Source of the DNA: Telluria beijingensis
GTDB taxonomy: Bacteria; Pseudomonadota; Gammaproteobacteria; Burkholderiales; Burkholderiaceae_D
Assembly: GCF_030770395.1 (NCBI RefSeq)
Contig: NZ_CP132480.1
Location: forward strand, 5,941,219-5,992,884
Direction of reading: 5' to 3'
DNA length: 51,666 nt
Part shown: positions 399 to 49,975 of the stretch, in pieces
Layout: every line of letters starts with the position of its first letter
How positions within the stretch are numbered: the first letter of the stretch is position 1
Notes under the pieces: model-generated
Databases searched by the model: none
What the model was told of the DNA's origin: nothing
What the model saw: the letters and a program-made list of their open reading frames with translations, nothing else
Translations under genes and position numbers: made by a program

Positions 399-417
399 CT
401 AGCCTGACGATAACCTA
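399..417 (-). rRNA. 5S rRNA 3'-tail fragment
   Basis: The minus strand reads GGTAGGTTATCGTCAGGCTAG, the usual 3' end of betaproteobacterial 5S rRNA, and then runs into the terminator at 356-391. Only about 20 bases remain; the rest of the 5S gene and all of 23S and 16S are missing. The same tail occurs at 40346-40367. The unrelated sequence that follows at 418 marks a break. Confidence 0.75.
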
Positions 418-421
418 CCGC
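414..421. other. sequence break 1: 5S tail joined to unrelated coding sequence
   Basis: To the left is an rrn 3' edge that should continue into 5S rRNA. To the right the sequence is in the middle of an unrelated open frame. I infer a contig join or rearrangement point here. Confidence 0.7.
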
Positions 422-498
422 TGGCCTTGCGCGTGAAGCGCAAGGTGAAACCGGCCCCGTCGAAGCAGGAATTCAACAGCAAAGTTAACTATGGATAG
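421..498 (+). pseudogene. 3' end of an unidentified gene, cut off at its 5' side
   Basis: An open frame enters from the break at about 418 and stops with TAG at 496-498. It encodes about 25 residues, ends in a basic stretch (RVKRKVKPAPSK) and finishes with NSKVNYG. It has no start codon of its own and looks like the C-terminus of a gene whose body is elsewhere. The family is not recognisable from so little sequence. Confidence 0.35.
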
Positions 499-500
499 CT

Positions 501-761
501 TTGCGTAAGTTTGAAGGAACGGTCTGCGAGCTGTCGCACCTGGACCGCGATCCGCGCTTCGCCGACAATCCGGCGGTCGCGGGGGCGCCGCATTTCCGTT
601 ATTACGCGGGGGCGCCGGTCGTCGACGACCAGGGTTTCGCGCTCGGCTCGCTGTGCGTGATCGATACCCGCCCACGCACGCTCGATGCGGTCCAGCGCCA
701 GATCCTGACGCGGCTGGCCGGACAGGCGGCGGAGATCGGGCGCCGCGGCCGCGGACGGTAG
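501..761 (+). pseudogene. GAF-domain fragment (sensor protein remnant)
   Basis: The frame holds the second half of a GAF domain of the kind found at the front of bacterial sensor kinases and diguanylate cyclases: LDRDPRFADNP, then HFRYYAGAPVVDDQGFALG, then LCVIDTRPR, and a closing helix. The first roughly 60 residues of the domain and any output domain are absent. The only in-frame start is TTG at 501, without a clear ribosome site. The frame stops at 761 after an arginine-rich tail that is unusual for the family. I read it as a degraded or truncated gene; a short single-domain protein is less likely. Confidence 0.5.
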
Positions 762-907
762 CGCCGCTGGCCGTGATCATCCAGGCAAGTGGTATTAGCG
801 TTCTGAAATCTCTGTTAGTTTTTAACTATTGAATAAGAAACTACGATAGCTTGTCATAAGCAGATTCGATTGGCCGCCGGCGGAGCTTTGCTGCACGATC
901 CGGCCCC

Positions 908-1537
908 ATGAACCACACCCACGATCGACACGGTCACCTGGCCGACCTGATCGCCGGCGCCGCCGCCGGCGATCGCGCGGCATTTCGCGAGCTGCACGCG
1001 CTGACCCACGACTACCTGTATCACACGGCCCTGCGGCTGCTGCGCCTGCCCAGCCTGGCGGAAGAAGCGCTGCAGGAGGCCTATCTCAGCATCTGGCTGC
1101 ACGCGGCCTCGTTCCGCCCCGGACAGGCCAGCCCGATGACCTGGCTGATCGCCATCGTCCGCAACCGCGCCCTCAGCGTATTGCGCAGCAATCGCAGCGG
1201 CATCGCTCCCCTGATCTGCGATGAGGACCCGGCGCTGCTGGTCGACATGGAAGAGGAAGAAGACGTCGATCCCGGCGCCCGGGTGTTCGATGCGCTGGCG
1301 CGCCTGCGCCTGGCGCATGCGATGACGCGGCTCGAACCGGCCCAGCGCCAGAGCATCGCGCTGGCCTATGGACAGGAATTGACGCATGCCGAAATCGCCA
1401 GCCATCTCGGGGTCCCATTGGGCACGGCGAAGAGCTGGCTGCGGCGCGGCCTGGAACGGCTGCGGATCGGCATGGACGAACCCGCGCGGCGGCAGCCGGT
1501 CAGGCCGGCGTCCACGCTCGCGGACTGCCGGCCATGA
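908..1537 (+). CDS. ECF-family RNA polymerase sigma factor
   Basis: This is an extracytoplasmic-function sigma factor of 209 aa. Region 2 (about residues 25-95) contains the helix ending in MTWLIAIVRNRALSVLR, and region 4 (about 145-190) has the helix-turn-helix LTHAEIASHLGVPLGTAKSWL. The two are joined by an acidic linker (MEEEEDVD). Such factors direct polymerase to a small regulon and are normally followed by an anti-sigma gene. None is present: the next gene is a convergent LysR regulator whose 3' end overlaps this one by 38 bases. The C-terminal tail beyond the region-4 helix is not conserved in the family as I know it. The target promoters and inducing signal cannot be read from the sequence. 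Confidence 0.85.
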   Translation: MNHTHDRHGHLADLIAGAAAGDRAAFRELHALTHDYLYHTALRLLRLPSLAEEALQEAYLSIWLHAASFRPGQASPMTWLIAIVRNRALSVLRSNRSGIAPLICDEDPALLVDMEEEEDVDPGARVFDALARLRLAHAMTRLEPAQRQSIALAYGQELTHAEIASHLGVPLGTAKSWLRRGLERLRIGMDEPARRQPVRPASTLADCRP

Positions 1538-2489
1538 CGTCCTGCATCTGCGCGCGCAACCACTGCAGTCCAGGGTCGCCGTCGCTGTTCGGATGCCAGG
1601 CCATGCACAGCGTGTAGGTCAGGAAGGGAAAGCCCAGTTCGACCACCTCGACACCCGCGTGATCGTATGGCGCGATGAAGGCCGGCACGGTGCACACCAG
1701 GTCGCTGTGGGCGACGGTCGCCGCGACGGCGCTGAAGTCGCGCACCGCCAGCGCGGTATGGCGCGAGTGGCCAAGGCGGTACAGTTGCTCGTCCATGAAG
1801 CCGTGCAGGCTGCTGTCGCGCGCCACGTTGACATGGTCGAGGGCGCAGTATTCTTCCAGGCCGACCGGCGCCGCGCCGCGCGGGTGACCCGCGCGCTGCA
1901 CCATCACGTAGGGCGTCGTGGTCAGCTCGCGGCTCGACAGGCCGGACGGCAGCAGGCAGGCGGTGCCGAAGCACAGGTCGACCTCCCCTTTTTCGAGCCG
2001 GCCCGCGAGGTCGGCGCCGTCCGGCGCGCTCAGGGTCAGGCGCAGGCCCTTGTTCGACAGCGCCAGCAGGCGACGCGCCAGTCCGGGAAGGATGACCGCG
2101 GCGCCCGTGTTATTGGCCACGATATGAAAGGTGCGCACCGCGGATGCGGGATCGAAATCGTCGGCGTCGAAGCGCACCGCCGCGTTCAGTCCCGCCAGCG
2201 CCGGTTGCAGGCGGCGGTGCAGCTTGAGCGCGAACGGCGACGGCGCCAGCCCCCGGCCACTTTCGGCCGGCACCAGCAGCGGGTCGCCGAACAGCTGGCG
2301 CAGGCGCGACAGCTGGGCCGACAGGGCCGGCTGGCTGACGTGCAGGCGCGCGGCGGCGCGCGTCACGCTGCACTCCTCGAGCAGGACGTTGAGCGACAGG
2401 AGCAGGGGCAGGTCGGCGCCGCGCAGGGACGGCGTGGCGCGCATCGGGGACCGGCGCTGTGGCTGGGACTGGGACTGGGGCTTGTGCAT
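1500..2489 (-). CDS. LysR-family transcriptional regulator
   Basis: The protein has an N-terminal winged helix-turn-helix (SVTRAAARLHVSQPALSAQL) followed by a periplasmic-binding-protein-like effector domain, the standard LysR plan. The ATG at 2489 gives 329 aa; an ATG at 2444 (314 aa) would put the DNA-binding helix at the usual distance from the N-terminus and is equally possible. Neither has a strong ribosome site. It lies 66 bases downstream of the SDR gene on the same strand, so the two may be cotranscribed. Its 3' end overlaps the convergent sigma factor by 38 bases. The effector is unknown. Confidence 0.85.
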   Translation of the reverse strand: MHKPQSQSQPQRRSPMRATPSLRGADLPLLLSLNVLLEECSVTRAAARLHVSQPALSAQLSRLRQLFGDPLLVPAESGRGLAPSPFALKLHRRLQPALAGLNAAVRFDADDFDPASAVRTFHIVANNTGAAVILPGLARRLLALSNKGLRLTLSAPDGADLAGRLEKGEVDLCFGTACLLPSGLSSRELTTTPYVMVQRAGHPRGAAPVGLEEYCALDHVNVARDSSLHGFMDEQLYRLGHSRHTALAVRDFSAVAATVAHSDLVCTVPAFIAPYDHAGVEVVELGFPFLTYTLCMAWHPNSDGDPGLQWLRAQMQDVMAGSPRAWTPA

Positions 2490-2555
2490 GGCTTGCGTTG
2501 GTTCCGAAGGTGGGCAGGAGCGCACGCCCCCACCCGCGTATTTACATGGGCGACA

Positions 2556-3335
2556 TCATACGGTAGGAATGGTCCCGCCATCGATGACGAATTCGGCGCC
2601 GTGGACCGAGGCCGCCAGCGGCGACAGCAGGAAGGCGACCAGTTCGGCGACTTCTTCGGGCTTGCCGGGGCGGCCGATCGGGATGCCGCCGAGCGACTCC
2701 ATCACCCGTTCGCGCGCCGCATCGACGCTGGCGCCGTCGTGCGCTGCCAGGCGTTCGAGAAAGGCGCGGGTCGCCGTGGTCTCGATGAAGCCGGGCGCCA
2801 CGGCGTTGACGCGGATGCCGCGCGGCCCGAATTCGTTCGCCAGCGACTTGCTGTAGCTGGCCAGGGCCGCCTTCGCCGCGGCATAGGCGACCGTCGATTC
2901 GTACAGGGGCAGGCGGCGCTGGATCGAGGTGATGTGCACGATCGCGCCCGCGCCGCGCGCCACCATCGCCGGCAGGAAGGCGCGGTCCACCCGCACCGCG
3001 CTCATCAGGTTGAGCTGGAGCTCCTGTTCCCACATGGCGTCGTCGAGCGCCAGCGCGCCGCCGCCCGGAGCCGAGGAGCCGCCGACATTGTTGACCACGA
3101 AATCCAGGTGGCCGAACTCGTCGTGGACCGTGTCGACCAGGCGCCGTGCGCCCTCGGCACTGGCCAGGTCGGCCTCGAGGTAGCGTACCGATGCCACCGG
3201 GTCGGAAGGCTGCCCGCGCGCCGGCGCGATCACGGTCGCGCCCCGCTCCGCCAGCACGCGCACGATGGCCGCGCCCATGCCCTTGGTGCCGCCGGTGACC
3301 AGGGCCCGCTTGCCGTCGAAGGAATAGGCGCTCAT
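2556..3335 (-). CDS. SDR-family oxidoreductase
   Basis: This is a classical short-chain dehydrogenase/reductase of 259 aa, a soluble NAD(P)-dependent enzyme. The Rossmann glycine motif TGGTKGMG is at residues 14-21, NNVG at 82-85, catalytic Ser137 and the YxxxK pair Tyr151/Lys155. The end (FVIDGG) is typical. Start at 3335 is chosen because GGAG lies 8 bases upstream (in CGCTGGAGATCAAGCC). It is divergent from a LysR gene starting at 3493, and a 17-bp palindrome lies between them, so that LysR probably regulates it. The substrate cannot be assigned; carbonyl-compound detoxification or lipid/steroid-type oxidation are both possible. Confidence 0.9.
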   Translation of the reverse strand: MSAYSFDGKRALVTGGTKGMGAAIVRVLAERGATVIAPARGQPSDPVASVRYLEADLASAEGARRLVDTVHDEFGHLDFVVNNVGGSSAPGGGALALDDAMWEQELQLNLMSAVRVDRAFLPAMVARGAGAIVHITSIQRRLPLYESTVAYAAAKAALASYSKSLANEFGPRGIRVNAVAPGFIETTATRAFLERLAAHDGASVDAARERVMESLGGIPIGRPGKPEEVAELVAFLLSPLAASVHGAEFVIDGGTIPTV

Positions 3336-3465
3336 GGCTTGATCTCCAGCGAATAGCGGGCGGCAGGTGGGGGTTAGTTGGTTCATGTGGTTTCTCCTCT
3401 GGGTTGGATACGTCCAGTGTAGGATGCGGCATCATGGCGAAAAAGACCCAAAAACGCTATGCTCC

Positions 3466-3482
3466 ATGAACCAGAGGTTCAT
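3466..3482. promoter_or_regulatory. 17-bp palindrome, likely LysR operator
   Basis: ATGAACC-AGA-GGTTCAT is a perfect 7-3-7 inverted repeat ending 10 bases before the LysR start at 3493, in the 157-bp divergent intergenic region shared with the SDR gene. Position and symmetry fit autoregulation by the LysR protein. The spacing is not the classical T-N11-A, so the assignment is an inference. Confidence 0.5.
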
Positions 3483-3492
3483 AATCAATGCC

Positions 3493-4413
3493 ATGAGCTC
3501 ACTCGAACTGATCCGCTTGTTCCTTGCGGTGGCGGAACACCGCAGCTTCACGCTCGCCGCCCGGCGGCTGGGCGTCAGCCCGACCGCCGTGAGCAAGGGG
3601 GTGCGCGCGCTGGAAGCAAAGCATGGCGTGACGCTGTTCGTGCGCACCACCCGCAGCGTCTCGCTCACCGATGCCGGCGCCGGCCTGCTCGCCGTGCTCA
3701 AGCCGGCGGTGGACCAGATCGAGGAAGCTTTCACGGGCCTGGAACGGTTCCAGCGCCGCCCCGCCGGCCGCCTGCGCCTGAGCGCGCCGCGCGCCTTCGG
3801 CTTCCTGGTGGCGCGGGAGCTGGTGCCGCGCATGCGCGCCGCTTATCCCGAGATCGGCTTCGACCTGTCGCTCGACGACGGCCTGGTCGACCTGGTGGCC
3901 GACGGCTACGACGCCGGCATCCGCCTCGGCCAGGCGGTGGCCCAGGACATGGTCGCCATCCGCCTCGGTCGCCCACTGGCGTGGTCGATCGTCGCGGCGC
4001 CGTGCTACTTCGCGCGCCATGGCGTGCCGACCGGGCCACGCGACCTGCTGCGCCACCGCGCCATCCGTTACCGCTTCACGACGTCCGGCGTGCTGCCGAC
4101 ATGGCTGTTGCGCGACGGCGATGGCGAGTTCCAGCTCGATCCCGGGGCCGACCTGTGCGCCAACGACACCCGCATGATCGCCGAGCTGGCGCGCGCCGGG
4201 CTGGGCATCGCGTATCTGCCCGACATCGAGATCGACGACGACCTGCGCCACGGCCGCCTGGTGCGGGTGCTGGCCTCGCATGTGCCCGCGACGTCAGGCC
4301 TGTACCTGTATTTCCCGATGCGCAGCCAGCACCAGCCCAAGATGCGGGCCCTGGTCGACGAGGCGTCGAAGCTGGCCGCCGAGGGGTTGCTCGACCTCGT
4401 CGACCGCGGCTAG
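3493..4413 (+). CDS. LysR-family transcriptional regulator, divergent to SDR
   Basis: A 306-aa LysR regulator with the N-terminal helix-turn-helix SFTLAARRLGVSPTAVSKGVR and a CrgA/DmlR-like effector domain (GRLRLSAPRAFGFLVARELV, then a degenerate ligand-binding fold). The start MSSLELIRLF is chosen because it gives the standard N-terminus of the family; upstream in-frame ATGs would add an unconserved leader. Divergence from the SDR gene at 2556-3335 suggests control of that gene, probably through the palindrome at 3466-3482. A convergent hydrolase gene starts 10 bases after the stop. Confidence 0.9.
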   Translation: MSSLELIRLFLAVAEHRSFTLAARRLGVSPTAVSKGVRALEAKHGVTLFVRTTRSVSLTDAGAGLLAVLKPAVDQIEEAFTGLERFQRRPAGRLRLSAPRAFGFLVARELVPRMRAAYPEIGFDLSLDDGLVDLVADGYDAGIRLGQAVAQDMVAIRLGRPLAWSIVAAPCYFARHGVPTGPRDLLRHRAIRYRFTTSGVLPTWLLRDGDGEFQLDPGADLCANDTRMIAELARAGLGIAYLPDIEIDDDLRHGRLVRVLASHVPATSGLYLYFPMRSQHQPKMRALVDEASKLAAEGLLDLVDRG

Positions 4414-4423
4414 CCGGTCCGGC

Positions 4424-5200
4424 TTATCTGGCGGCGGTCGCGGCGACCGCTTCCAGGATCACTTTCGCCACCTCCGCCGGGCGCGATTGCTGCGGCACGT
4501 GGCTCGCCTGCAGTTCGGAGGTCTTTGCGCCGATCTTGCTGGCCATCGCACGCTGCAGGCCGGGGTCGATCATGCGGTCACGGCTGCTGACGATGTACCA
4601 GGACGGTTTGGATTTCCACGCCACGGCCGACACCTTGTCGCTGAAGGCCCTGGACTGGATCGGGCCCTGGGTCGCGGCCATCACGGCGGCCTGCGCGGCC
4701 GGGACGTCCTGGGCGAAGTCTTCGCGCATCGCGGCGTCCGGCAGGCTCAGGAAGCCTTCCTTGTCGGCGACGAAGCGCTTGCTGCCGGGGGCGGCCGGGA
4801 AGCCTTCGCCAGTCTCGGCGGTCGACTTGCCGGCCTCCGGCGCGAACGCGGCCACGTAGACCAGGCTGCCCACCTTGGCGTGGTTGCCGGCCTCGGTGAT
4901 CACGGTGCCGCCCCAGGAGTGACCGACCAGCACCACCTTGCCCGGCTGGGTCTCGATCGCGCGCCGCGCCGCGGCCACGTCGTCGGCCAGCGAGGTCAAG
5001 GGATTCTGGATCGCGGTGACCTTCACGCCCTTGGCCTGCAGCAGCGGGATGACCCTGGCCCAGTCCGAGCCGTCGGCAAAGGCGCCGTGCACGATCACGA
5101 CCGAGGGTTTTTCCAAGGTATCGGCGGCGTGGGCGGTGACGCCGATGGCGGCCAGGGAGGCGGCGACGACGAGCGCTTTCAGGTGGTGTGTGACGGTCAT
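4424..5200 (-). CDS. secreted alpha/beta hydrolase
   Basis: A 258-aa serine hydrolase with a signal peptide at residues 1-25 (cleavage after AHA), so it is likely periplasmic. The fold is marked by the oxyanion HG at 38-39, the nucleophile elbow GHSWGG (Ser95), the acid in SSRDRMID and the C-terminal His in ASHVPQQSRP. It belongs to the EstC/pyrethroid-esterase-like or salicylate-esterase-like group of small hydrolases that carry VHGAF. AGGAG lies just upstream of the ATG at 5200. The region in front holds a 22-bp perfect palindrome, a probable operator. It is on the same strand as, and 98 bases downstream of, the ferredoxin reductase gene. The natural substrate is unknown. Confidence 0.85.
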   Translation of the reverse strand: MTVTHHLKALVVAASLAAIGVTAHAADTLEKPSVVIVHGAFADGSDWARVIPLLQAKGVKVTAIQNPLTSLADDVAAARRAIETQPGKVVLVGHSWGGTVITEAGNHAKVGSLVYVAAFAPEAGKSTAETGEGFPAAPGSKRFVADKEGFLSLPDAAMREDFAQDVPAAQAAVMAATQGPIQSRAFSDKVSAVAWKSKPSWYIVSSRDRMIDPGLQRAMASKIGAKTSELQASHVPQQSRPAEVAKVILEAVAATAAR

Positions 5201-5261
5201 GGTGTTCTCCTGTGGGGTGTTGGGTAAGTGAGTCCAGTATAGGGAACGCCTATCCACCCCG

Positions 5262-5283
5262 GTATCGGTCGATCGACCGATAC
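5262..5283. promoter_or_regulatory. 22-bp perfect palindrome, candidate operator
   Basis: GTATCGGTCGA followed immediately by its reverse complement TCGACCGATAC. It lies 62 bases upstream of the hydrolase start at 5200 and 16 bases beyond the reductase stop. A perfect palindrome without spacer or T tract resembles a TetR- or MarR-type binding site more than a terminator. No cognate regulator is adjacent. Confidence 0.5.
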
Positions 5284-5298
5284 GGTCCACCCGCACGG

Positions 5299-6396
5299 TC
5301 AGTCGAACACCGGCGTCTCGACCCCGAGCAGCTTGTGGATCTTGGGCGAGGTGGTCGTGTACACCATATGCGTCTTGCGGTCGGGGAAGACATGGGCCGC
5401 GACGCCGTAGGCCGCCAGCGCCGCTTCATGGAAGCCCGACAGGATCAGCTTCTTCTTGCCGTGATAGGTATTGATGTCGCCCACGGCGAAGATGCCCGGT
5501 TCGCTGGTCTCGAAGGTGCCGGTATCGTGTACCCGCAACTGGCGCATCTCCATGTCCAGGCCCCAGTCCACGATCGGTCCCAGCATCGGCAGCAGGCCGA
5601 AGAACACCATCAGGGCGTCGACCGGCACGCGCCGCGTGACGCCGTCGGCGCCCGCCACCTTGACTTCGGACAGTCGCCCGCCCTGCACGTCGAAGCCGGT
5701 GACCTGGCCCGACATGAACTGCATCTCGTGCGCCTCGCATAGCGCCTTCATCCTGGCGATCGAGGCCGGGGCCGCCCGGAAGCTGTCGCGCCGGTGCACC
5801 AGCACCACCGATGCCGCCTTGCCGACGAAGTCCAGCGCCCAGTCGAGCGCGGCGTCGCCGCCGCCGCAGATCACCAGTTGCCGGCCGTGGAAGCGCTCGG
5901 GACGCTTGACCCGGTAGAACAGCTGGCTGTCCTCGAAGCGCTCGATGCCGGCCACCTTCAGCTTGCGCGGCTGGAAGGCGCCGACGCCGGCGGCGATGAC
6001 GACCGTCTTCGCGATGAAGCGCGTGCCGGTCGAAGTCGCGAGGTCGAACCGGCGGTCGGCGCGCCGCTGCAGCAGCGTCACCTCCTGCCCCAGGTGGAAG
6101 GTGGGCGCGAACGGCGCGCTCTGGGCCAGCAGCTTGTCGGTCAGTTCGCGGCCGGTGAGGACCGGCGCCGCCGGGATGTCGTAGATCGGCTTGTCCGGAT
6201 ACAGCTCCACGCACTGCCCGCCCACCGCGCCCAGCGAATCGATCACGTGGGCGCGGATGTCGAGCAGCCCCAGTTCGAATACCTGGAACAGGCCGACCGG
6301 CCCGGCGCCGACGATCACGGCATCGGCGTCGATGGCGCCATCGCCGGCCTCGAATTCGGGCCGGAAGATGCCTGGCGCTTCTACTGGTTTGTTCAT
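5299..6396 (-). CDS. ferredoxin--NADP reductase, thioredoxin-reductase-like
   Basis: A 365-aa flavoenzyme of the TrxR-like ferredoxin(flavodoxin)-NADP+ reductase type (EC 1.18.1.2). The FAD-binding GAGPVG is at residues 30-35, the NAD(P)H-binding GGGDAALDW at 178-186 and the second FAD motif FAVGDINTY near the C-terminus. The CxxC redox pair of true thioredoxin reductases is absent, as expected. It moves electrons between NADPH and ferredoxin or flavodoxin in the cytoplasm. The promoter at 6461-6491 has a SoxR box in a 19-bp spacer, so induction by redox-cycling agents is likely. The ATG at 6396 follows AAAGGAAGCG. Confidence 0.92.
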
Positions 6397-6460
6397 ATCG
6401 CTTCCTTTCTGCTTGATAGCTGGAGGGCTGGCCGACGACAGGTCGGCCGCGGATCATCAC

Positions 6461-6491
6461 TTTATAAATCCTCAACTTCACTTGAGGTCAA
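6461..6491 (-). promoter_or_regulatory. SoxR-type promoter of the ferredoxin reductase gene
   Basis: On the minus strand TTGACC (-35, plus 6486-6491) and TATAAA (-10, plus 6461-6466) are separated by 19 bases. The spacer carries CCTCAAGTGAAGTTGAGG (6470-6487), a near match to the SoxR consensus with perfect 6-bp arms. The overlong 19-bp spacer is the hallmark of MerR-family activation. A small hairpin (6430-6448) lies in the untranslated leader. No soxR gene is in the window. Confidence 0.8.
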
Positions 6492-6614
6492 GTGGCAGAC
6501 GACTCTCCGGCGCAGATAAATCGGAACCATTCAGCAACAAACAAGGCACGCCACCCGCGAGCCGATTTACAATAGTGATTATTTCCCATCGGCAAGACCA
6601 CCTGCCCTGACCAG

Positions 6615-8834
6615 ATGAACAACATGATCCCGCCCGACGTCCAGGCCAAGCTCGCGCAGCGCCGCCAGGCCGTGCGCCGCAGTCCGCGCGACGCCAACGC
6701 CCATGCCCTGCTCGGCCTGGCCCTGCTCAAGGAATTGCAGCTCGAAGAAGGCGTCGGCGCGCTGCAGCGGGGGCTCGAGCTCGATCCCAAGCTGCGCGGC
6801 GTGCATGGCGTGCTGGCCGGCGCGCTGTTCGACCTGGGACGCTACGAGGCGGCGGTCGACTGCTACCGCAAGGCGCTGCGCTTCCAGCAGGCGGCCGACC
6901 TGCACCAGAACCTGGGCACGGCGCTGCTGCGCCTGGGACGCCTGGAAGAGGCCGAACCGAGCCTGCGCCGCGCGGCGGAACTGGCGCCCGGGGACGTCGA
7001 AACCCAGCTGGGCCTGGTGACGGTGCTGCTCGCCCTCGGCCGGCACGACGACGCGCGCGAGATCATGCAACTGGTGACGACGCTGACGCCGGACCAGGCG
7101 GATGCGCACTACCGGCTGGGACTGCTCCTGTGCCACATCAAGAACTGGGAGGCGGCGCTGGCCAGCATGGAGGCGGCGCTGGCCTGCGCGCCCGACCATC
7201 TCGAGGCGCAGCGCCACGTCGGCCTGTGCCAGCGCGAGCTGGGCCGCGCCGACGAAACGATCGCCGCGCTGGAGCGGGCCATGGCGCTCGCGCCCGACAA
7301 TCCGGTCCTGCTCGACGACCTGGTCTCCAGCTTCCAGAAGTTCAAGCGCTTCCGCGAAGCGATCGCCGTGGGCCGGCGGATCCTGGTGGACCGCCCGGCC
7401 AGCCAGCGCGCCCTGAGTTCGCTGGTGCACTGCCACTTCACGCTGGGAGAATGGGAAGATGCGCTGGCGGCGGCGCGCCTGACGCTCGAACGCGTGCCGT
7501 CGGCCGAGAACCACAGCATGCTGCTGTTCGTCCTGAGCCACTGCTGCAGCGACCCCGAGGAACTGACGCGCGAACACTTCGCCTTCGGCGAGCGCTGGGA
7601 GTCGGGACTGGTCGGGCAGCGCCAGCCGCACGGAAACGCGCGCGATCCGCGGCGCGTGCTGCGGGTCGGCCTGGTGTCGGGCGATATGTACGGCCACGCC
7701 GTGGCCCGCTTCGTGGCCCCGGCGCTCGAAGCGCTGAAGGACAGCACGCAAATCCGCTTCCACGTCTACTACAACAACCGGATCGAGGACCACGTCACGC
7801 GCGCCATGAAGAAGACGGTGAGCGTCTGGCGCAGCATCGTCGACCTGGACGACGCCGCGGCCGAGCGCCTGATCCGCGACGACGGGGTCGATGTCCTGGT
7901 CGACCTGTCCGGCCATTCGGCGCTCAACCGCCTGTCGCTGTTCGCGCGCAAGCCGGCCCCGGTGCAGGCGACCTGGATCGGCTACGCCGGCACCACCGGG
8001 CTGCGCGCGATGGACTATATCCTGTGCGACCGCTTCATGGTGCCCGGCGAGCGCTACGCCGACCAGTTCACCGAGAACATCGTCAAGCTGCCGCTGGGGG
8101 CGCTGTTCCTGCCGGAGCCGGTCTCGCCCCCGGTCAACCCGTCGCCGGCCATGCAGAACGGTTACCTGACCTTCGGCAGCTTCCACCGCGCCAGCAAGCT
8201 CGGGCGCGAGGTGATCGCGCAATGGGCTTCGCTGCTGCATGCGATCCCGGACGCCAGGATGCTGCTCGGCGGCCTGGAATCGGGCATCGACGACGTGCTG
8301 GTCGAGTGGTTCGCCGACGCCGGCATTCCGCGCGAGCGCCTGCTGCTGCGCCAGCGCACCTCGGTGCGCGAATACCTGAAGCAGCACTACGAGGTCGACG
8401 TCTGCCTCAGCCCCTTCCCCTACAGCGGCTCGACCACCATCGGGCATGCGCTGTGGATGGGCGTGCCGACCCTGGCCACGGTGGGCGCCACCAACCCGAG
8501 CCATACCTCGGTGCCGTTCATGGCCCATATGGGCCTGCACACCTTCATTACCGAGAGCCCCGAGACCTATGTCAAGCTGGGCGTGTTCCTGTCGCAGAAC
8601 CTGCCGGCGCTGGCCGCCATGCGCGCCACCATGCGCCAGCGCTTCCTCGATTCCATCCTCGGCTATCCGGGCATCGTCGGGGCCAGCCTCGAGCTGGCGC
8701 TGCGCCGCATGTGGGAGCGCTGGTGCGACGGCCTGCCGCCGGCGCCGCTGAGCGTGACGATGCAGGAACTGGCCGAGCTGCACCGGGTCGCACCGGAGGC
8801 GGACGGCACGGTCGAAGCGACGCCCGAAAAATAA
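6615..8834 (+). CDS. TPR-repeat glycosyltransferase, GT41 (O-GlcNAc-transferase-like)
   Basis: A 739-aa cytoplasmic protein. Residues about 20-300 are tandem tetratricopeptide repeats. From about 345 the C-terminal half is the GT41 catalytic region related to SPINDLY/OGT: the start RVLRVGLVSGDMYGHAVARF, DLSGHS near 430, PVQATWIGYAGTTG near 450-462 and PFPYSGSTTIGHALWMGVP near 600-615. Family knowledge says such enzymes transfer a sugar from a nucleotide-sugar donor to Ser/Thr. A flagellin gene starts 127 bases downstream on the same strand, and this arrangement suggests flagellin glycosylation. The start at 6615 is followed by another ATG at 6624; the first is kept by convention. Confidence 0.85.
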   Translation: MNNMIPPDVQAKLAQRRQAVRRSPRDANAHALLGLALLKELQLEEGVGALQRGLELDPKLRGVHGVLAGALFDLGRYEAAVDCYRKALRFQQAADLHQNLGTALLRLGRLEEAEPSLRRAAELAPGDVETQLGLVTVLLALGRHDDAREIMQLVTTLTPDQADAHYRLGLLLCHIKNWEAALASMEAALACAPDHLEAQRHVGLCQRELGRADETIAALERAMALAPDNPVLLDDLVSSFQKFKRFREAIAVGRRILVDRPASQRALSSLVHCHFTLGEWEDALAAARLTLERVPSAENHSMLLFVLSHCCSDPEELTREHFAFGERWESGLVGQRQPHGNARDPRRVLRVGLVSGDMYGHAVARFVAPALEALKDSTQIRFHVYYNNRIEDHVTRAMKKTVSVWRSIVDLDDAAAERLIRDDGVDVLVDLSGHSALNRLSLFARKPAPVQATWIGYAGTTGLRAMDYILCDRFMVPGERYADQFTENIVKLPLGALFLPEPVSPPVNPSPAMQNGYLTFGSFHRASKLGREVIAQWASLLHAIPDARMLLGGLESGIDDVLVEWFADAGIPRERLLLRQRTSVREYLKQHYEVDVCLSPFPYSGSTTIGHALWMGVPTLATVGATNPSHTSVPFMAHMGLHTFITESPETYVKLGVFLSQNLPALAAMRATMRQRFLDSILGYPGIVGASLELALRRMWERWCDGLPPAPLSVTMQELAELHRVAPEADGTVEATPEK

Positions 8835-42203: not shown

Positions 42204-42662
42204 TCAGCCGGCGCTATCGTTCAGGCTCTTGCGCAGATTCACCAACTGGTCGCGCAAGGCCGACGCTTCGTCGACCGAACACTGGGTTGCGCACAACACC
42301 GCCGGCATCACGCTAGCGGCTTCTTTCCTCAAGGCGTTGCCGGCGTCGGTCAGGCTGATGATCACCTGGCGTTCGTCGCTGCGCGCGCGGTTACGCTGCA
42401 CCAGGCCCTGGGCTTCCATACGCTTGAGCAAAGGCGTCAAGGTCGCCGAGTCGAGGAACAGGCGTTCGCCGATGTCGGACACGGTCAATTGATCTTGTTC
42501 CCACAAAACCATCATCACAAGATATTGCGGATACGTGAGCCCGAGCTTGGGCAGCAGGCCGCGGTATACCCGCATCATTGCCAGCGACGTCGAGTAAAGG
42601 GCAAAGCACAGTTGCTCGTCGAGCATGGGCGCGGCAGGGGCAGTAGAGGCGTTCGTGTTCAT
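42204..42662 (-). CDS. ohrR: OhrR-like MarR-family redox regulator
   Basis: A 152-aa winged-helix regulator. The OhrR signature [12 protein letters not shown] carries the peroxidatic Cys19, and further Cys at 124 and 128 near the C-terminus match the 2-Cys type of OhrR, which forms a disulfide on organic hydroperoxide. The wHTH ([25 protein letters not shown]) is about 58-85. In most genomes it controls ohr; here the divergent gene is an aldehyde dehydrogenase. A partly symmetric site (42688-42705) lies 25 bases upstream of the start. Confidence 0.85.
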
Positions 42663-42687
42663 GCATCCAATATAGGTCGCACACTAG

Positions 42688-42705
42688 ATAATTGCAAGCG
42701 ATGAT
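42688..42705. promoter_or_regulatory. candidate OhrR/MarR operator
   Basis: ATAATTGC-AA-GCGATGAT is an inverted repeat with two mismatches in 8-bp arms. It lies between the MarR gene (start 42662) and the divergent aldehyde dehydrogenase (start 42905). A second small inverted repeat ATGAG-TG-CTCAT is at 42873-42884, 20 bases before the dehydrogenase start. Confidence 0.4.
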
Positions 42706-42904
42706 TAACGCTTATGCCCGGCGTCAAGGCTGATGGTGACTAGGGAGTGTGCGGGCACTTACATTGCCGTATCTCTGCAATACGGGAAGTTGTCCGATTG
42801 ACGTCGGACTGGCAGGATCAGGCAAGAGCTCGGCAGGAATCGTCTACCTCTCTCATCAACATGCGTCCTATGATGAGTGCTCATTATTTGCGCGGAGGAT
42901 CCCC

Positions 42905-44335
42905 ATGAAACTGATCGACACTATCTATATCAAGGGACAATTCATCAAGCCGCATGGCAGCGAGCGTTTCAGCCTGGTCGACCCGGTCACCGAGGAGGAG
43001 GCCGCGCAAGTCATCCTGGCGGACGAGGTCGATGCGGAAAATGCGATCGCCGCCGCGAGCGTCGCATACCGTGAGCTCGCCGGCGCTTCACGTGAACAGC
43101 GCATGGACTGGCTCGCACGCCTGCACCACGTGGTCGCAGATGCCGAAGAAGAATTGGTCGCGACAATGATCGAAGAATACGGCGGCCCCCACGCCATTTC
43201 GCGCGCGACGTCGAGGCGGGCCGCCGCCTCGTTCGACCAGGCACGTAGCCTGCTCGCCGACTACCCGTTCGAGCGTCAGGTCGCCAGCGCGCGCGTGCGC
43301 ATGGAGGCACTGGGCGTGGTTGGCCTGATCACGCCATGGAATGCGAATTACGGCATGATCTGCAGCAAACTCGCAATGGCGATCGCCGCCGGCAGTTCGG
43401 CAGTGATCAAGCCGAGTGAATTGAGCGCACGGCAGACAGATCTGCTGACCCGTGTACTGCACCGTGCCGACCTGCCGCCAGGGCTATTCAATATCCTGAC
43501 TGGCCGCGGCGACGTGGTTGGCGCCGCCTTCGTTCGCCACCCGGGCATCGCGAAGATCTCGTTCACCGGCTCCACCGCGGTCGGCAAGTCGATCGTGCGC
43601 GGCTGCGCCGATACGCTCAAGCGCGTCACCCTGGAGTTGGGCGGCAAATCGCCCACGGTCCTGCTCGACGATGCGGACTTCGGCAAGGCCATGCCACTGA
43701 TCGCGGCGGCCGCCACCATCAACAGTGGCCAGGCCTGCCTGGCGGGGACACGCCTGCTGGTGCCACGGGCGCGGTTGCAGGAGGTCGAGCAAGGTATCGT
43801 CGCGACGTTCGCAGCCCTGACGGTGGGCGATCCACGCGACCCGGCAACCCGGATCGGGCCCATGGTCAGCGCTACCCAGTATCAGCGTGTACAAGGATAC
43901 ATCCGCAAGGGTATCCAGGAGGGCGCCACGCTGCTGCTGGGAGGCACAGGTTTGCCCGAGGGTTTGGAGCGGGGTTACTTCGTGCGGCCTACGGTCTTCA
44001 GTAATGTGAGCAACGACATGACCATCGCAAGAGAAGAAATCTTCGGGCCGGTGCTGTCGGTGATTGCCTACGACGATGAAGAAGACGCCATTGCTATCGC
44101 GAACGATACGATCTATGGCTTGCACGCCAATGTGTTCTCGGGCGACGTGGCGCGCGCCAATCGGGTCGCCCGTCGCATCCAGGCAGGTCGTGTTTTTATC
44201 AATGGCTTGTATGACGAGCCGATGGCGCCGTTCGGTGGATTCAAGCAATCCGGTCTCGGACGTGAATTCGGCGTATTCGGGTTGGAAGAATATCTTGAAC
44301 CGAAAACCTTGCTGGGCTATGAACAATCGCTCTGA
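42905..44335 (+). CDS. aldehyde dehydrogenase
   Basis: A 476-aa NAD(P)-dependent aldehyde dehydrogenase that oxidises an aldehyde to its acid. The catalytic set is complete: Asn146 in PWNAN, Lys169 in IKPSE, FTGST at 220-224, Glu244 in LELGG and the nucleophile Cys278 in GQACLAG. The C-terminal PFGGFKQSGLGREFG is typical of the betaine/benzaldehyde-type group. GGAGGATCCCC precedes the ATG at 42905, and the in-frame upstream extension is not conserved. An AraC regulator gene overlaps its end by 17 bases, and an OhrR-type gene is divergent. The substrate is unknown. Confidence 0.93.
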   Translation: MKLIDTIYIKGQFIKPHGSERFSLVDPVTEEEAAQVILADEVDAENAIAAASVAYRELAGASREQRMDWLARLHHVVADAEEELVATMIEEYGGPHAISRATSRRAAASFDQARSLLADYPFERQVASARVRMEALGVVGLITPWNANYGMICSKLAMAIAAGSSAVIKPSELSARQTDLLTRVLHRADLPPGLFNILTGRGDVVGAAFVRHPGIAKISFTGSTAVGKSIVRGCADTLKRVTLELGGKSPTVLLDDADFGKAMPLIAAAATINSGQACLAGTRLLVPRARLQEVEQGIVATFAALTVGDPRDPATRIGPMVSATQYQRVQGYIRKGIQEGATLLLGGTGLPEGLERGYFVRPTVFSNVSNDMTIAREEIFGPVLSVIAYDDEEDAIAIANDTIYGLHANVFSGDVARANRVARRIQAGRVFINGLYDEPMAPFGGFKQSGLGREFGVFGLEEYLEPKTLLGYEQSL

Positions 44336-45239
44336 ACCTGAGTTGCTCCGGCTGCTGCTGGCGGCGGTAAGCCAGCGCTACGCCGAGGCGGGCGGCATCG
44401 ATGACCTGCCGACGGCGCTGCCCTGGCTGGGACTGGTCCGGCGCCGGGCCCCGACGCCGATCGGACGCGGCATGCTGGAACCGTCGATGTGCCTGATGCT
44501 GCAGGGCGAGAAGCAGATGCTGGTCGGTGAGCGCATACTGCGCTATGCGCCGGGTTGTTATGTGCAGGCGGGCACGGCAATGCCGGTATCGGGCCAGGTC
44601 ATGCGCGCTACCGACGACGAGCCCTACTATGGCATCCGCGTCGATCTCGACCTGAAGGAACTCGCATCCTTCCTGCTCGAGATGCGGATCCCGATGCCGC
44701 CCCAGGATGACGACCCGCCATTCGTCAGTGTCGAGACGGCGGGGAAGGCGTTGCTGGAATCCCTGGAGCGCCTGCTGCGGCTGCTTGACCGGCCGTCGGA
44801 CTTGCCCGTCCTCGGCCACCTGCTCAAGCAGGAAATCCTGTATCACCTGGTGACGGGGCCTGGTGGGCCTACCCTGACACGCGGCCTGATGGGCGGTCGG
44901 CACGAGTCCGCCGTCAACAAGGCGATCGGCTGGATCCGTGAGCATTTCGATGCACCATTGCGAATTGCCGAACTGGCCGAAGAGGTGCACCTGAGCCCAT
45001 CTGTCCTCCACCGCCGCTTCAAGGCGGCGACGATCATGAGTCCGCTCCAGTACCAGAAGCAGGTGCGGCTGTTGGAAGCGCGCAAGCTCTTGATGAGCGG
45101 CGGCGCCGAGGCGGCCAATGTCGCCTTCCAGGTGGGATATGAAAGTCCATCGCAGTTCAGCCGCGAGTACCGCCGCCTGTTCGGCGCCTCGCCGTTGCAG
45201 GATGCAGAACAATTACGCGGCGTGGCGCCGGCGCCATGA
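44319..45239 (+). CDS. AraC-family transcriptional regulator
   Basis: A 306-aa regulator. The N-terminal part (about 20-190) has the AraC_N (PF06719-like) pattern GRGMLEPSMCLMLQGEKQMLVGE. The C-terminal DNA-binding domain (about 200-300) has LRIAELAEEVHLSPSVLHRRF and VAFQVGYESPSQFSREYRRLFG. The ATG at 44319 overlaps the end of the aldehyde dehydrogenase gene by 17 bases, so the two are translationally coupled. The family often controls an adjacent alcohol or aldehyde metabolism gene. Confidence 0.93.
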   Translation: MNNRSEPELLRLLLAAVSQRYAEAGGIDDLPTALPWLGLVRRRAPTPIGRGMLEPSMCLMLQGEKQMLVGERILRYAPGCYVQAGTAMPVSGQVMRATDDEPYYGIRVDLDLKELASFLLEMRIPMPPQDDDPPFVSVETAGKALLESLERLLRLLDRPSDLPVLGHLLKQEILYHLVTGPGGPTLTRGLMGGRHESAVNKAIGWIREHFDAPLRIAELAEEVHLSPSVLHRRFKAATIMSPLQYQKQVRLLEARKLLMSGGAEAANVAFQVGYESPSQFSREYRRLFGASPLQDAEQLRGVAPAP

Positions 45240-45273
45240 TTTGCCATCGCAGAACAATATTATTGCTGAGCAC

Positions 45274-45424
45274 TTGCGCGACGGGGTAGGGCTTTGCTAT
45301 AGTTCGCGTCCGCTTCGGCATGACCGAAAAATGTTAACGTAATCAAGTGGTTACGCTAGCAAGATCGGCAGAGAAATCTGAGGCGAAGCGAAATGAGGGG
45401 TTGACGAAAAACGAAAAACACTTC
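45274..45424 (+). promoter_or_regulatory. rRNA-operon upstream region: complete P1, P2 cut at its -10
   Basis: P1 is TTGCGC (45274-45279) - 18 bases - TATAGT (45298-45303). P2 has TTGACG at 45401-45406 and a 17-base spacer, then the sequence leaves the rrn promoter at 45424 exactly as at 26795. It matches the 26645 copy closely; the last 40 bases before the break are identical. Confidence 0.75.
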
Positions 45425-45425
45425 G

Positions 45426-45470
45426 GCCAGCTACGACGAGGAATATGATCGCACGATACTGAACACGTAA
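45426..45470 (+). pseudogene. possible 3' end of a gene, cut off at its 5' side
   Basis: A frame enters from break 7 and stops at TAA 45468-45470 after about 14 residues (ASYDEEYDRTILNT). With so little sequence this is only a guess. It is given because each other break cuts a coding region. Confidence 0.2.
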
Positions 45471-45488
45471 GCTTTCGTTAGCTGAAAA

Positions 45489-45595
45489 ACGTCGTCCCCG
45501 CGCAGGCGGGGACCCAAGTATCAAGCGCTCCACTTCAGGATATCGAAGTGGCTGAGCCAGCAAACTTGGGTCCCCGCCTGCGCGGGGACGACGTG
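45489..45595. repeat. REP-type inverted repeat pair (BIME)
   Basis: Two hairpins in opposite orientation: GTCCCCGC-GCAG-GCGGGGAC (45494-45513) and GTCCCCGC-CTGC-GCGGGGAC (45570-45589), with outer ACGTCGT/ACGACGT arms and CCAAGT/ACTTGG just inside. A third hairpin CACTTC/GAAGTG lies in the middle (45531-45550). The whole 107 bp can fold into one long palindrome. It lies just past the 3' end of the DPP-like gene and shares its core with 29857-29995. Confidence 0.85.
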
Positions 45596-45608
45596 CGTAT
45601 TGCAGTGA

Positions 45609-47828
45609 TCAGTTCGGCTGCGTGCCGCCCAACTGCTTCTTGAAGTAGGCCTCGATCAAGCCATACACGTGGCGCTGGTTGGTGCGGCCCGAAATGCCAT
45701 GCTTGGCGCCCGGATAGGTCATCAGGTCGAACTGCACATTGCGCTTCACGAGCTCGTCGATCAGCAGGGTGGTGTTCGAGAACAGCACATTGTCGTCGGC
45801 CATGCCGTGGATCAGCAGCAGGTGCGATTTCATGCCGTCCAGGTGGGCGAACACGCCGCTGCGTTTATACGCTTCCGGATCGCCCTTCGGCGTGCCGCCC
45901 ACGTAGCGCTCGGTATAGTGGGTGTCGTACAGCGCCCAGTCGGTCACCGGCGCCACCGACACGCCCATTGCGATCTTGTCCGACGCCGCCGACAGCAGGC
46001 GCAGCGTCATGAAGCCGCCATAGCTCCAGCCGAACACGCCCACGCGCTTCGGATCGACGAAGCTCTGCTTGGCTAGCCAGTCGATGCCGGCCACCTGGTC
46101 TTCGACTTCATGCTGGCCCAGATTGTTGTGCAGGACGTCGGTGAACTGGCGTTCGCGGCGGCCCGAGCCGCGGTTGTCGAGGCGGAACACCACGAAGCCC
46201 TGCTGCGCCATGTACTGGTCAAAATAATTGCCCCATGCACGGGTCACGCGCTGCGAGTGCGGGCCGCCATAGGTGAACAGGAACACTGGGTAGCGCTTGT
46301 TGGCATCGAAACCGGCCGGCTTGATGATCGAATAATGCAGGGTCTGGCCATCGGCCGCCTTCAGGGTGCCGAACTCGGTCGGCAGGTGCGCATCCAGGTG
46401 GCGGGTGTACGGATGCTTGTCGTCGAGCGCGTTCTTTTCGATCCACTCGACCATGCTGCCGTCGGCGCGGCGGATCGATACCTGCGGCGGGGTGTTCGGG
46501 TTCGAGTAGGTGTCGACGAACAGCTTGCCGTTGCCGGCGAAGGCGGCTTCGTGCCAGCCGTCGCCCTGGGTGATGCGGGCCGGCTTGTCGGCGCCGCGGC
46601 CGTCCAGCGCCAGCGCATAGGTCTGCTTGTCGATCACGGCGTCGCGGTTCGACGAGACATACACCTTGCCGGCGCCTTCGTCGACCGCCAGGATGCCGTC
46701 CACGCCCCAGTTGCCGCGCGAGATCGGGTGCAGCAGCTTGCCATTCAGGTCATACAAATACAGGTGCTTGTAGCCGCTGCGTTCGGAAGCCCAGATGAAG
46801 GCCTGGCGATTCTTGAGGAAGCGCAGGTCGTTGTGGACCTCGACCCAGGTCCTGGAATTCTCGGAGAACAGTGGACGCTGGGCCAGCGTGGCGACGTCGA
46901 CCGCCACCAGGTCGAGGCGCTTCTGGTCGCGCGTCTGGCGCTGGTAGACCAGGGTCTTGCCGTCGGCGCTGAAGTCGGCGCGCACCAGGTAGACGTCCTT
47001 CTCCGCGCCGAGGTCGATCTTGCGCTGGACGCCGGTGGCCGGATTGACGACCATCAGTTCGATCGCCACGTTCGGGTCGCCCGCGGCCGGGTAGTGCTGG
47101 TCGATCACCTCGGTGCGGTCGGCGAAGATCTCGAAGCGGCGCACCACCGGCACCGGCGCCTCGTCGTAGCGGCGGTAGGCGATGTGGGAATCGTCCGGCG
47201 CCCAGTAGTAGCCGGTGGTCTGGCTCATCTCTTCCTGCGCGATGAACTCGGCGGCGCCGTTGTGCACGGTGCCCTTGCCGTCGGTGGTCAGCTGGCGCTC
47301 GGCGCCGGTGGTCAGGTCGATCACCACCAGGTTCTGGTCACGCACGAAGGACACATAGCGGCCGCGCGGCGAGATCTTCGGATCGGTGACGTTGCCCGAC
47401 GCTACCTTGCGCGCGGCTTCCGGCCTGGCGGCGTCCACCAGGTACAGGTCACCGCCGATCGGCACCAGCAGCTGCTTGCCGTCGGGCGACCAGTAATAGC
47501 TCAGGATGCCCGACAGGCCGGCGGTACGCGCGCGTTCGCGGCGCGCTTTTTCTTCGAGCGACAACTCTTCGTTGGGCACCAGCTGCTTGGAATCGACCAG
47601 GCGTTGGGTGGCCTTGCTCTTCGTGTTGTATTCCCACAGGTCGAGACGGTACTGGTCGTCGGCGCGCGGGCGCAGGAAGGTCACGCGTTCGCCATCCGGC
47701 GACACGCGCAGGTTGCGCACGCTGGCGCCGGCCAGCGAGGCTTCGCCGTAGATGCGGTCCAGGGTCAGGCGTTCGGCCATGGCGGGAGAGGCCGCCAGGG
47801 CGGCCAAAAGGAGGAGAAGAGGGCGCAT
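45609..47828 (-). CDS. dipeptidyl peptidase IV-like S9 serine peptidase
   Basis: A 739-aa secreted peptidase with a signal peptide (1-18), an N-terminal beta-propeller (to about 480) carrying the Glu pair motif AQEEMSQTTGYYW that binds the substrate amino terminus in DPP-IV, and a C-terminal alpha/beta-hydrolase catalytic domain. The triad is Ser602 in GWSYGG, Asp678 in GMADDN and His710 in GAKHG. It probably removes N-terminal X-Pro or X-Ala dipeptides in the periplasm. The start at 47828 is the natural one. A REP pair follows its stop. Confidence 0.93.
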   Translation of the reverse strand: MRPLLLLLAALAASPAMAERLTLDRIYGEASLAGASVRNLRVSPDGERVTFLRPRADDQYRLDLWEYNTKSKATQRLVDSKQLVPNEELSLEEKARRERARTAGLSGILSYYWSPDGKQLLVPIGGDLYLVDAARPEAARKVASGNVTDPKISPRGRYVSFVRDQNLVVIDLTTGAERQLTTDGKGTVHNGAAEFIAQEEMSQTTGYYWAPDDSHIAYRRYDEAPVPVVRRFEIFADRTEVIDQHYPAAGDPNVAIELMVVNPATGVQRKIDLGAEKDVYLVRADFSADGKTLVYQRQTRDQKRLDLVAVDVATLAQRPLFSENSRTWVEVHNDLRFLKNRQAFIWASERSGYKHLYLYDLNGKLLHPISRGNWGVDGILAVDEGAGKVYVSSNRDAVIDKQTYALALDGRGADKPARITQGDGWHEAAFAGNGKLFVDTYSNPNTPPQVSIRRADGSMVEWIEKNALDDKHPYTRHLDAHLPTEFGTLKAADGQTLHYSIIKPAGFDANKRYPVFLFTYGGPHSQRVTRAWGNYFDQYMAQQGFVVFRLDNRGSGRRERQFTDVLHNNLGQHEVEDQVAGIDWLAKQSFVDPKRVGVFGWSYGGFMTLRLLSAASDKIAMGVSVAPVTDWALYDTHYTERYVGGTPKGDPEAYKRSGVFAHLDGMKSHLLLIHGMADDNVLFSNTTLLIDELVKRNVQFDLMTYPGAKHGISGRTNQRHVYGLIEAYFKKQLGGTQPN

Positions 47829-47880
47829 TGATGTCTCTTGAGGATTATTAATTTACAGCAATCGCGAGACGATACCAGAG

Positions 47881-49290
47881 TCAGCGGGCCTGCGCCATGG
47901 CGCCATCGCGGATCTTCCGGCGCGCCAGCTTCTCGAATTGCCAGGTCAGCAGCACCGCCGCCACCGTCAGCGCCACCACCAGGCCGATCCAGAAACCGGT
48001 GGCCTGCATCGGCTCGCTAGGTGTCCACGGGAACCAGGCCGGCGCCAGGCCCAGGATGCAGCCGAGCGGCAGCGACAGGCCCCAGAACGACAGCAGCTGG
48101 ATCACCATCGGCGGGCGCGTCACCTGGTAGCCGCGGATGGCCGAGGCGGTGGCGACCTGGGTCGAATCGGACAGCTGGAACAGGGCCGCGAACAGCAGCA
48201 GGTGGGCGGTCACCTGCTGCACCGCCGGGTCGGAGGTGTACATCGCCGCGATCTCCCAGCGGAACAGGGCGATGCCGATCGCCGCCAGCACGCCGAAGCT
48301 GACCGAGACGCCCACGCCCACCCAGCCCACGAAGCGCGCCCGCACCGGGTCGCCTTCGCCCATCGCCTGGCCGACGCGGGTGAGCATGCCGATCGCGAAG
48401 CTGAGCGGCACCATGAACACCAGCGAGGCGAAATTGAGCGCGATCTGGTGCGAGGACACCTGCACCACCCCATAGCGCGCCACCAGCAGGCTGATCAGGC
48501 CAAAAGCGCTGACCTCGGCAAAATAGGTGACGCCGATCGGCAGGCCCAGGCGCAGCTGGGCGCCAATTTCTCGGGTGTCCGGGCCTTCGTAGCGGTCGAA
48601 GGGGTAGGTGAGGCGGTAGGCGGGCGCGCGCGTGATCCACCACAGCATGGCGCCCAGCATCAGCCACAGGGCGCTGGCGGTGGAAATCGCGCAGCCGACC
48701 GCCCCCAGTTGCGGGAAGCCGAATTTGCCGTACACCAGTACCCAGGCCACCAGGGTATTGAACAGCAGGCCGAGGATGGCGATCCACATGATCGGCTTGG
48801 TCTGGTTGATGCTGGTGGTGTAGCCGTACAGCGCGCGGTAGACCCCGAAAGCCGGCATGCCGACGCTGATCACGTGCAGGAACAACGAGGCGCGGTCGGC
48901 TACATGGCCGTCCATGCCGATGTGGTCGAACAGCAGCGTGCACAGGTTGGCGAACAGGCAGCCGACCAGGCCGACCAATAATCCCTTCCACATGGCCTGG
49001 CGCACCGAATGCGGCACCCGGTCGTGGCGCGCGGCGCCGATCTCGTGCGCGACCACGGTATTGATCGCCATCATGGTGCCCATCACCGTGACCAGCACGA
49101 TCGACCACACCGCCGTGCCCAGCGACACCGCGGCCAGCTCGTCAGCGCTGACGTGGCCGGTGAGGGCGACGTCGACCACGCCCATGCCCACCGTCGCCAG
49201 CTGGCCGACCAGGACCGGCCATGACAGGCGCCACAGGGTAGCGATCTCGGTGCGGACGGGCGTGGCGGAAGGGGCGGCGATCGGGTTCAT
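47881..49290 (-). CDS. MATE-family efflux transporter
   Basis: A 469-aa multidrug exporter with twelve membrane segments in two halves of six (about 15-235 and 240-455). The N-terminal PVLVGQLATVGMGVVDVALTGH and the pattern of charged residues in TM7 are typical of NorM-type MATE proteins that use a Na+ or H+ gradient. It is divergent from the tssF 5' fragment (start 49444). The ATG at 49290 is unambiguous. The substrate is unknown. Confidence 0.93.
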   Translation of the reverse strand: MNPIAAPSATPVRTEIATLWRLSWPVLVGQLATVGMGVVDVALTGHVSADELAAVSLGTAVWSIVLVTVMGTMMAINTVVAHEIGAARHDRVPHSVRQAMWKGLLVGLVGCLFANLCTLLFDHIGMDGHVADRASLFLHVISVGMPAFGVYRALYGYTTSINQTKPIMWIAILGLLFNTLVAWVLVYGKFGFPQLGAVGCAISTASALWLMLGAMLWWITRAPAYRLTYPFDRYEGPDTREIGAQLRLGLPIGVTYFAEVSAFGLISLLVARYGVVQVSSHQIALNFASLVFMVPLSFAIGMLTRVGQAMGEGDPVRARFVGWVGVGVSVSFGVLAAIGIALFRWEIAAMYTSDPAVQQVTAHLLLFAALFQLSDSTQVATASAIRGYQVTRPPMVIQLLSFWGLSLPLGCILGLAPAWFPWTPSEPMQATGFWIGLVVALTVAAVLLTWQFEKLARRKIRDGAMAQAR

Positions 49291-49443
49291 GGTGCGGCAA
49301 CGTGAAGAGGGGAACCCGTGATTTTACTGACTTATTGTCAAGCCCGGTACCGGCGCTTGCTTCCCGTCGTTAATGTTGTGACTTCGCAAGACAAGTTTCC
49401 GCGATCTGCACCACCGTAGAGCGACAAGCTGAGGAGGGTCGCG

Positions 49444-49935
49444 ATGGAAGAACTGCTGCCGTACTACGAGCGCGAACTGGTCTACCTGAACACCGTTGGC
49501 CGCGAGCTCGCCCACCAGTATCCGCGCCTGGCGGCCGAGTTGGGCCTGGGCCCCGAAGGCAGCGAAGACCCCCATATCCGGCGCCTGATCCAGGCCTGCG
49601 CGCTGCTCAATGCGCGTACCGCGAAAAAGCTCGACGACGACTATCCGGAACTGACCGAAGCCCTGCTGGGTAGCCTGTATCCGCACTTTTTGCATGGCAT
49701 GCCGAGCTGTTCGATCGTCCAGGTCGGCGGCGCCGACCCGCAGGCCCGGGCCGGCAAGATCGAGCAGGTGCAGGAAGTCGCCCGCGGCACCGAAATGAGT
49801 TCGCTGGCCGCGCGCGGGGCGCCCTGCGTGTTCCGCACCACGGCCGGCCTGGCGCTGGCGCCGGTGGCGGTGGCGCGCGCCTGGTTCGAGCCGGTGGCCC
49901 ACGTGCCGCCGCGCATCCGGCTGCCGCCGCGCGCG
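49444..49935 (+). CDS. tssF: type VI secretion baseplate protein TssF, 5' part only
   Basis: The first roughly 164 residues of TssF/VasA, a baseplate subunit of the type VI secretion system: [62 protein letters not shown] and [16 protein letters not shown]. TssF proteins have about 580-620 residues. GAGGAGGG is just upstream of the ATG at 49444. The sequence leaves the family at about 49935 and enters the antisense strand of a hybrid kinase. In normal operons tssF follows tssE and is followed by tssG; neither is here. Confidence 0.9.
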
Positions 49936-49975
49936 GCGGCCTGCGTCCCGCCCGGACGCGGGCGGCGCCGGCGCG
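49930..49975. other. sequence break 8: tssF joined to hybrid kinase
   Basis: The tssF frame continues past the break as nonsense to about 50409, and the kinase frame continues leftward past it as nonsense to about 49324, which is why both look longer than they are. No rrn sequence lies here. A GC-rich stretch (GCCGCCGCGCGCGGCGGC) at the join may have allowed a random overlap or a simple end-to-end joining. Confidence 0.7.

Follow-up and report, generated by a model that had tools for sequence, protein, structure and literature searches.

A stretch of DNA in which one sequence is replaced by an unrelated one at eight places raises the question of whether the order of its parts exists in the bacterium or arose when the genome record was put together. 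The window, by which we mean the whole stretch analysed (51,666 bases), corresponds to C1:5941219-5992884 of a 6,017,275-base (6.02 Mb) genome that is recorded as one contig, with a completeness of 100 and a contamination of 0.06. It is bounded exactly by single Ns at C1:5941218 and C1:5992885. The closest named relatives are Massilia species (best identity 87%, one protein compared), and this one-protein match suggests that the organism is close to Massilia. A literature search for the strain or for any described case yielded, in the portions of the sources that were available, nothing on the present genome.

Genomes compared

The window was compared with 12 relatives, eight of them of the same genus, and with the genome itself. 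Follow-up of the junction sides was done with the same-genus genomes G001-G005, G007 and G008. G006 (83% complete, 540 contigs) entered the first comparison only, as did the same-order genomes G009-G012, which have no bearing on the junctions. G002 and G008 were omitted from the control segment and from several further comparisons, and one comparison comprised G004, G005 and G007 only.

Eight breaks in the window

From the letters alone, the first-pass annotation had placed breaks at 418, 10041, 18611, 26795, 34711, 40368, 45424 and 49945, and had read the window as contigs laid end to end in order of length. All eight breaks proved to be real. The blocks between them (no strand assigned) and the features at their ends are as follows.

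1-418, right end of B0 (block C1:5930406-5941636), whose terminus is an rrn 3' edge with the terminator and the start of 5S
419-10042, B1, 9624 bases; opens with 41 bases identical to C1:5842055-5842095, where a multi-copy stretch starts
10043-18609, B2, 8567 bases; rrn terminator at the start, ABC-transporter ATPase gene at the end
18568-18609, plus strand, 42 bases shared exactly with the first bases of B9 (C1:5995632-5995673)
18610-26795, B3, 8186 bases; rrn terminator at the start (first 41 bases equal C1:1-41), 16S leader at the end
26755-26795, plus strand, 41-base end of the 16S leader, identical to 45384-45424, with no 16S after it
26796-34710, B4, about 7916 bases; starts within a gene with receiver and Hpt domains
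34711-40367, B5, about 5656 bases; reversed rrn leader at the start, rrn 3' edge at the end
40368-45424, B6, 5057 bases; rrn terminator at the start, 16S leader at the end
45425-49940, B7, about 4517 bases; opening 41 bases also present at C1:6016213 and, in reverse, at C1:5731116; ends inside tssF
49941-51666, left part of B8 (block of about 4472 bases), which continues past the N at 5992885 as far as C1:5995631
49324-51648, minus strand, chimeric 774-aa open reading frame across J7, in which the kinase part of B8 is fused to an antisense reading of the tssF end of B7

Among the matches listed, same-genus matches end no more than 7 bases from seven of the eight breaks on at least one side. 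The refined edges and the nearest listed match ends to the left and right are:

J0, edge 418/419; match ends 418 and 419
J1, edge 10042/10043; match ends 10036 and 10173
J2, edge 18609/18610; match ends 18609 and 19177
J3, edge 26795/26796; match ends 26793 and 26796
J4, edge within 34705-34715; match ends 34705 and 34715
J5, edge 40367/40368; match ends 39723 and 40613
J6, edge 45424/45425; match ends 45422 and 45613
J7, edge within 49938-49943; match ends 49938 and 49943

A weak exception is one G004 match that starts at 49917 and thus crosses J7 by about 25 bases. J5 is bracketed by the matches of relatives to about 0.9 kb only, and its exact placement rests on two rrn terminators that lie in opposite orientation in its sequence. 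The claim that coding frames are cut at the breaks also held, since reading frames across the joins are truncated or chimeric: J2 interrupts the ABC-transporter ATPase gene, J7 cuts tssF after about 165 of 608 profile positions, and the left end of B4 lies inside a gene.

Repeats at the block ends

The edges of rrn operons reported at some of the breaks were confirmed. The 16S leader stops at 26795 and at 45424, where other DNA takes over; genome-wide it has two copies within 3 mismatches, at window positions 26766 and 45395, each with unrelated DNA after it. The terminator hairpin occurs at window positions 362, 10047, 18615, 40307 and 40370 and also at base 1 of the record. Another copy adjoins a 5S gene (C1:5930278-5930390), and because the hairpin adjoins 5S where it is complete, it is identified as the rrn terminator. 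At gathering thresholds Rfam found no RNA family in the window. A search of the genome for SSU rRNA returned none, an absence weakened by a 2,507-N run at C1:6006591 that is unreadable; of 14 control genomes, 9 gave a positive result in the same search. Near the end of the record lies roughly half of a 23S gene. The best Rfam match of this half gene (L017:12081-13593) is the archaeal LSU model, yet it matches relatives at 98-99%, so the archaeal assignment is probably an effect of model scoring.

Other unit ends were seen to lie in repeats as well (rrn, tuf and other duplicated ends), except at the left side of J1, the right side of J3, the left side of J4 and J7. The 1,196-base block C1:6012828-6014023 contains one EF-Tu gene (tuf) and nothing else, and its two terminal 41-mers equal C1:5073783-5073823 and 5189762-5189802, reversed. 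By eye, two edges resemble tRNA-Ser. A 36-base repeat shared with window positions 40328-40363 terminates exactly at 418, the end of B0.

Of the 16 terminal 41-mers at the window junctions, eight are exactly duplicated, compared with 22 of 3000 random 41-mers. This count takes only the eight window junctions, which the first-pass annotation had placed independently, with a deviation of at most 2 bases wherever there is a 41-mer; edges outside the window, such as 5917007, 5930406, 5995632 and 6016213, were excluded because they had been located by duplicated 41-mers themselves. When the final 336 kb of the record were scanned together with its first 20 kb, 16 maximal exact repeats had a length of 41 bases and 7 a length of 42, against a total of 2 for all lengths from 43 to 49. 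Over a wider 1.16 Mb the corresponding numbers are 22, 7 and 10; here 8 of the 29 rows of 41- or 42-base repeats were judged by reading to lie within diverged repeat copies and not at edges. A further 49 repeats of length 37 in the 1.16 Mb belong mostly to one tandem array. Such an array, with a 40-base period and one 37-base word at 23 places, is located at C1:5554814-5555770. For J4 and J7 no duplicated 41-mer was found in the fifth of the genome that was searched, and their partner ends may lie in the remaining four fifths.

Lengths of the blocks

The seven complete blocks of the window were confirmed to decrease strictly in length (9624, 8567, 8186, 7916, 5656, 5057 and 4517 bases). When the series was extended outside the window, the order held on both sides, with blocks of 19477, 13399 and 11231 bases to the left and of 4472, about 3968, about 3188 and 2226 bases to the right. 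Together these are 14 strictly decreasing blocks, from 19,477 to 2,226 bases, spanning C1:5897530-6005013. If lengths are exchangeable, the chance of such an order is 1/14!, or 1.1e-11. The uncertainty of the edges (about 40 bases for B9/B10, 10 for J4 and 5 for J7) leaves the order unaffected.

Farther to the left, other 41-mer edges give units of 116,020 bases (C1:5073783-5189802) and 65,040 bases (5666117-5731156), provided that no further join lies inside them. A continued order beyond the series needs unlocated joins in 5731157-5842054 (110,898 bases) and 5842055-5897529 (55,475 bases). Past 6005013 the order is not traceable: 6005014-6011491 (6,478 bases, with an N run) and 6014024-6016212 (2,189 bases) need further joins, and further pieces near the end of the record measure 1,336, 1,196 and 1,063 bases.

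Gene order in related genomes

A search for the blocks in related genomes had been proposed as a check on the joins, and in no testable case were the flanks of a junction neighbours. In all seven junction-by-relative cases in which both flanks were listed on one contig the flanks were separated, by 28 kb to 1.39 Mb. The flanks of J1 lie about 0.54 Mb apart in G005 and 0.53 Mb apart in G007, and those of J7 1.33 and 1.39 Mb apart in the same two genomes. In G007 the distances are 28 kb for J2, with the order reversed, 1.07 Mb for J3 and 0.7 Mb for J6. In the remaining relatives with both sides listed the sides are on different contigs, which is weaker evidence because those assemblies, too, break at rrn edges.

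A control segment (C1:3000001-3019990) is collinear in G004; in G001, G003, G005 and G007 collinearity begins at about base 3660 and is interrupted only by one 2.3-kb segment found elsewhere. Within blocks, parts of B1 (2560-5285, 5299-6339 and 6650-10004) match separate places in relatives, and the first gene of B3 (19189-19781) is 2.3 Mb away from the rest of B3 in G007, despite which no join was detected inside B1 or B3. Natural differences in gene order therefore exist too, and non-adjacency in relatives is by itself not proof of a false join.

For one block the true neighbour can be named. B2 and B9 (C1:5995632-) form one contiguous stretch in G004:C77 and G007:C7, overlapping by the same 42 bases; owing to this overlap and the contiguity in two relatives, the true right neighbour of B2 is B9, which lies 36 kb away in the record. 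In G007, B3 (1451-1461 kb) and B2 (1433-1439 kb) are both on the minus strand, with 5S beside B2, and these positions suggest the order B3 - rrn - B2. A search for the leader in two G007 stretches (L113 and L114) found none. G007 is an imperfect yardstick, as it has single Ns in its rrn regions. These Ns (G007:C7:1439339 and 1462447) stand beside 5S genes in stretches with no SSU match, and the rrn operons of G007 look collapsed too.

Variation in gene order among relatives, together with the many junctions that are rrn edges, could also be expected of a real chromosome in which rrn operons and other repeats have recombined many times. Such recombination leaves whole operons, however, whereas here leaders and terminators abut unrelated DNA. 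The window contains no rRNA and so lacks the intact operon expected at each point of recombination, and the 41-base duplicates at the ends and the order of lengths would be unexplained. We consider this explanation very improbable.

Equally improbable, in our judgement, is that only some of the joins are false and that J4 and J7 are real, as might be argued from the lack of a 41-mer duplicate for either in the searched fifth of the genome. Against a real J7 stand the truncated tssF and the distances between its flanks in G005 and G007. At J4 the right side is a reversed rrn leader, and none of the six relatives for which both sides are listed (G001, G003, G004, G005, G007 and G008) has the two flanks on the same contig. 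A mobile island or cassette array with units bounded by a conserved hairpin, which the near-identical hairpin at several edges might bring to mind, seems very unlikely, since the hairpin is the rrn terminator and is seen beside 5S in relatives as well (L020 and further matches), and since, as speaks against an island, the genes of the blocks have counterparts scattered across relatives, those of the penicillin amidase and tssF blocks at 70-90% identity.

Single-N joins

In C1:4881219-6017275, 19 of 21 single-N sites are flanked on both sides by exact duplicates of 89-229 bases; other N runs there are 100, 123 and 2,507 long. At the left edge of the window, positions 1-164 are an exact copy of the 164 bases before the N (C1:5941054-5941217). 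Single Ns are also present within B0, B8, B10 and B11. Because blocks contain single-N joins with duplicated sides, the sorted units are scaffolds and not bare contigs. The single Ns themselves would be scaffold gaps, with one N written where the gap estimate was zero or less, and the joins they mark inside blocks probably link true neighbours, in contrast to the silent joins between blocks.

Origin of the joins

It is all but certain that the window consists of length-sorted scaffolds of a short-read draft laid end to end, with joins that are artefactual. The concatenation proposed in the first-pass annotation thus stands, supported by the separated flanks in relatives, the duplicated 41-mers at block ends and the length order on both sides of the window; its term contigs has to be refined to scaffolds with single-N joins. 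Very likely the entire 6.02-Mb record was silently concatenated in this way, in order of length and without spacers.

We infer the following course of events. A short-read assembler of the de Bruijn type, with k=41, would have halted contigs at repeats, namely rrn operons, duplicated tuf, tRNA-like and other multi-copy sequences. A scaffolding step may then have linked some contigs by N runs, with a single N for gaps estimated at zero or below. Sorted from longest to shortest, the scaffolds would have been written consecutively without spacers, and the window would be part of the tail of short scaffolds in this row.

These steps have known counterparts. Contigs from a de Bruijn assembler end at repeats and overlap their neighbours by about k bases; the same is found here, with a shared length peaking at 41 and no difference seen. 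Scaffold joins with a negative gap are marked by one N, and here the same bases stand on each side at 19 of 21 sites, but within blocks. Concatenating draft contigs into a pseudo-molecule is a known practice, and the record shares with such pseudo-molecules the single record made from many pieces, the non-biological order, the false neighbours and the chimeric reading frames at joins. It differs from the usual ones in having no linker or N spacer at the silent joins, for which reason gap-based checks miss them.

Consequences for users of the record

The joins being artefacts, the remaining interest is a warning to users of the record and a cheap test. Genes facing each other across a join do not lie side by side in the bacterium itself, and neighbourhoods, operons and fused reading frames there are false. 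If this is true for the whole record, it gives false gene order, operons and fusion proteins at many points, although it satisfies completeness and contamination checks and counts as one contig; a species-representative genome with a completeness of 100% would not be caught by the usual checks. Work on synteny or replicon structure and the training of genome-order models on this record would be misled. The signature consists of exact repeats that peak at one length, leaders without 16S and shrinking blocks; other single-contig records can be tested for it at little cost, and an exact-repeat peak with members at hidden ends could expose similar records in reference collections.

Other features of the blocks

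In B2, a HipA-like gene (PF07804, window 14553-15806) lies in a segment that is missing from G007 between otherwise contiguous matches. Window positions 45489-45596, in B7, form an inverted repeat, nearly identical pieces of which occur at C1:5774509, 5810260 and 5889709; it is a dispersed REP-like element. The hybrid-kinase unit of B8 (window 49942-51666 plus C1:5992886-5995631) has two neighbouring matches in each of G003, G004 and G005. In the same three genomes the right end of B8 matches just upstream of its left end, and on this ground the unit may be a tandem array that was collapsed or cut.
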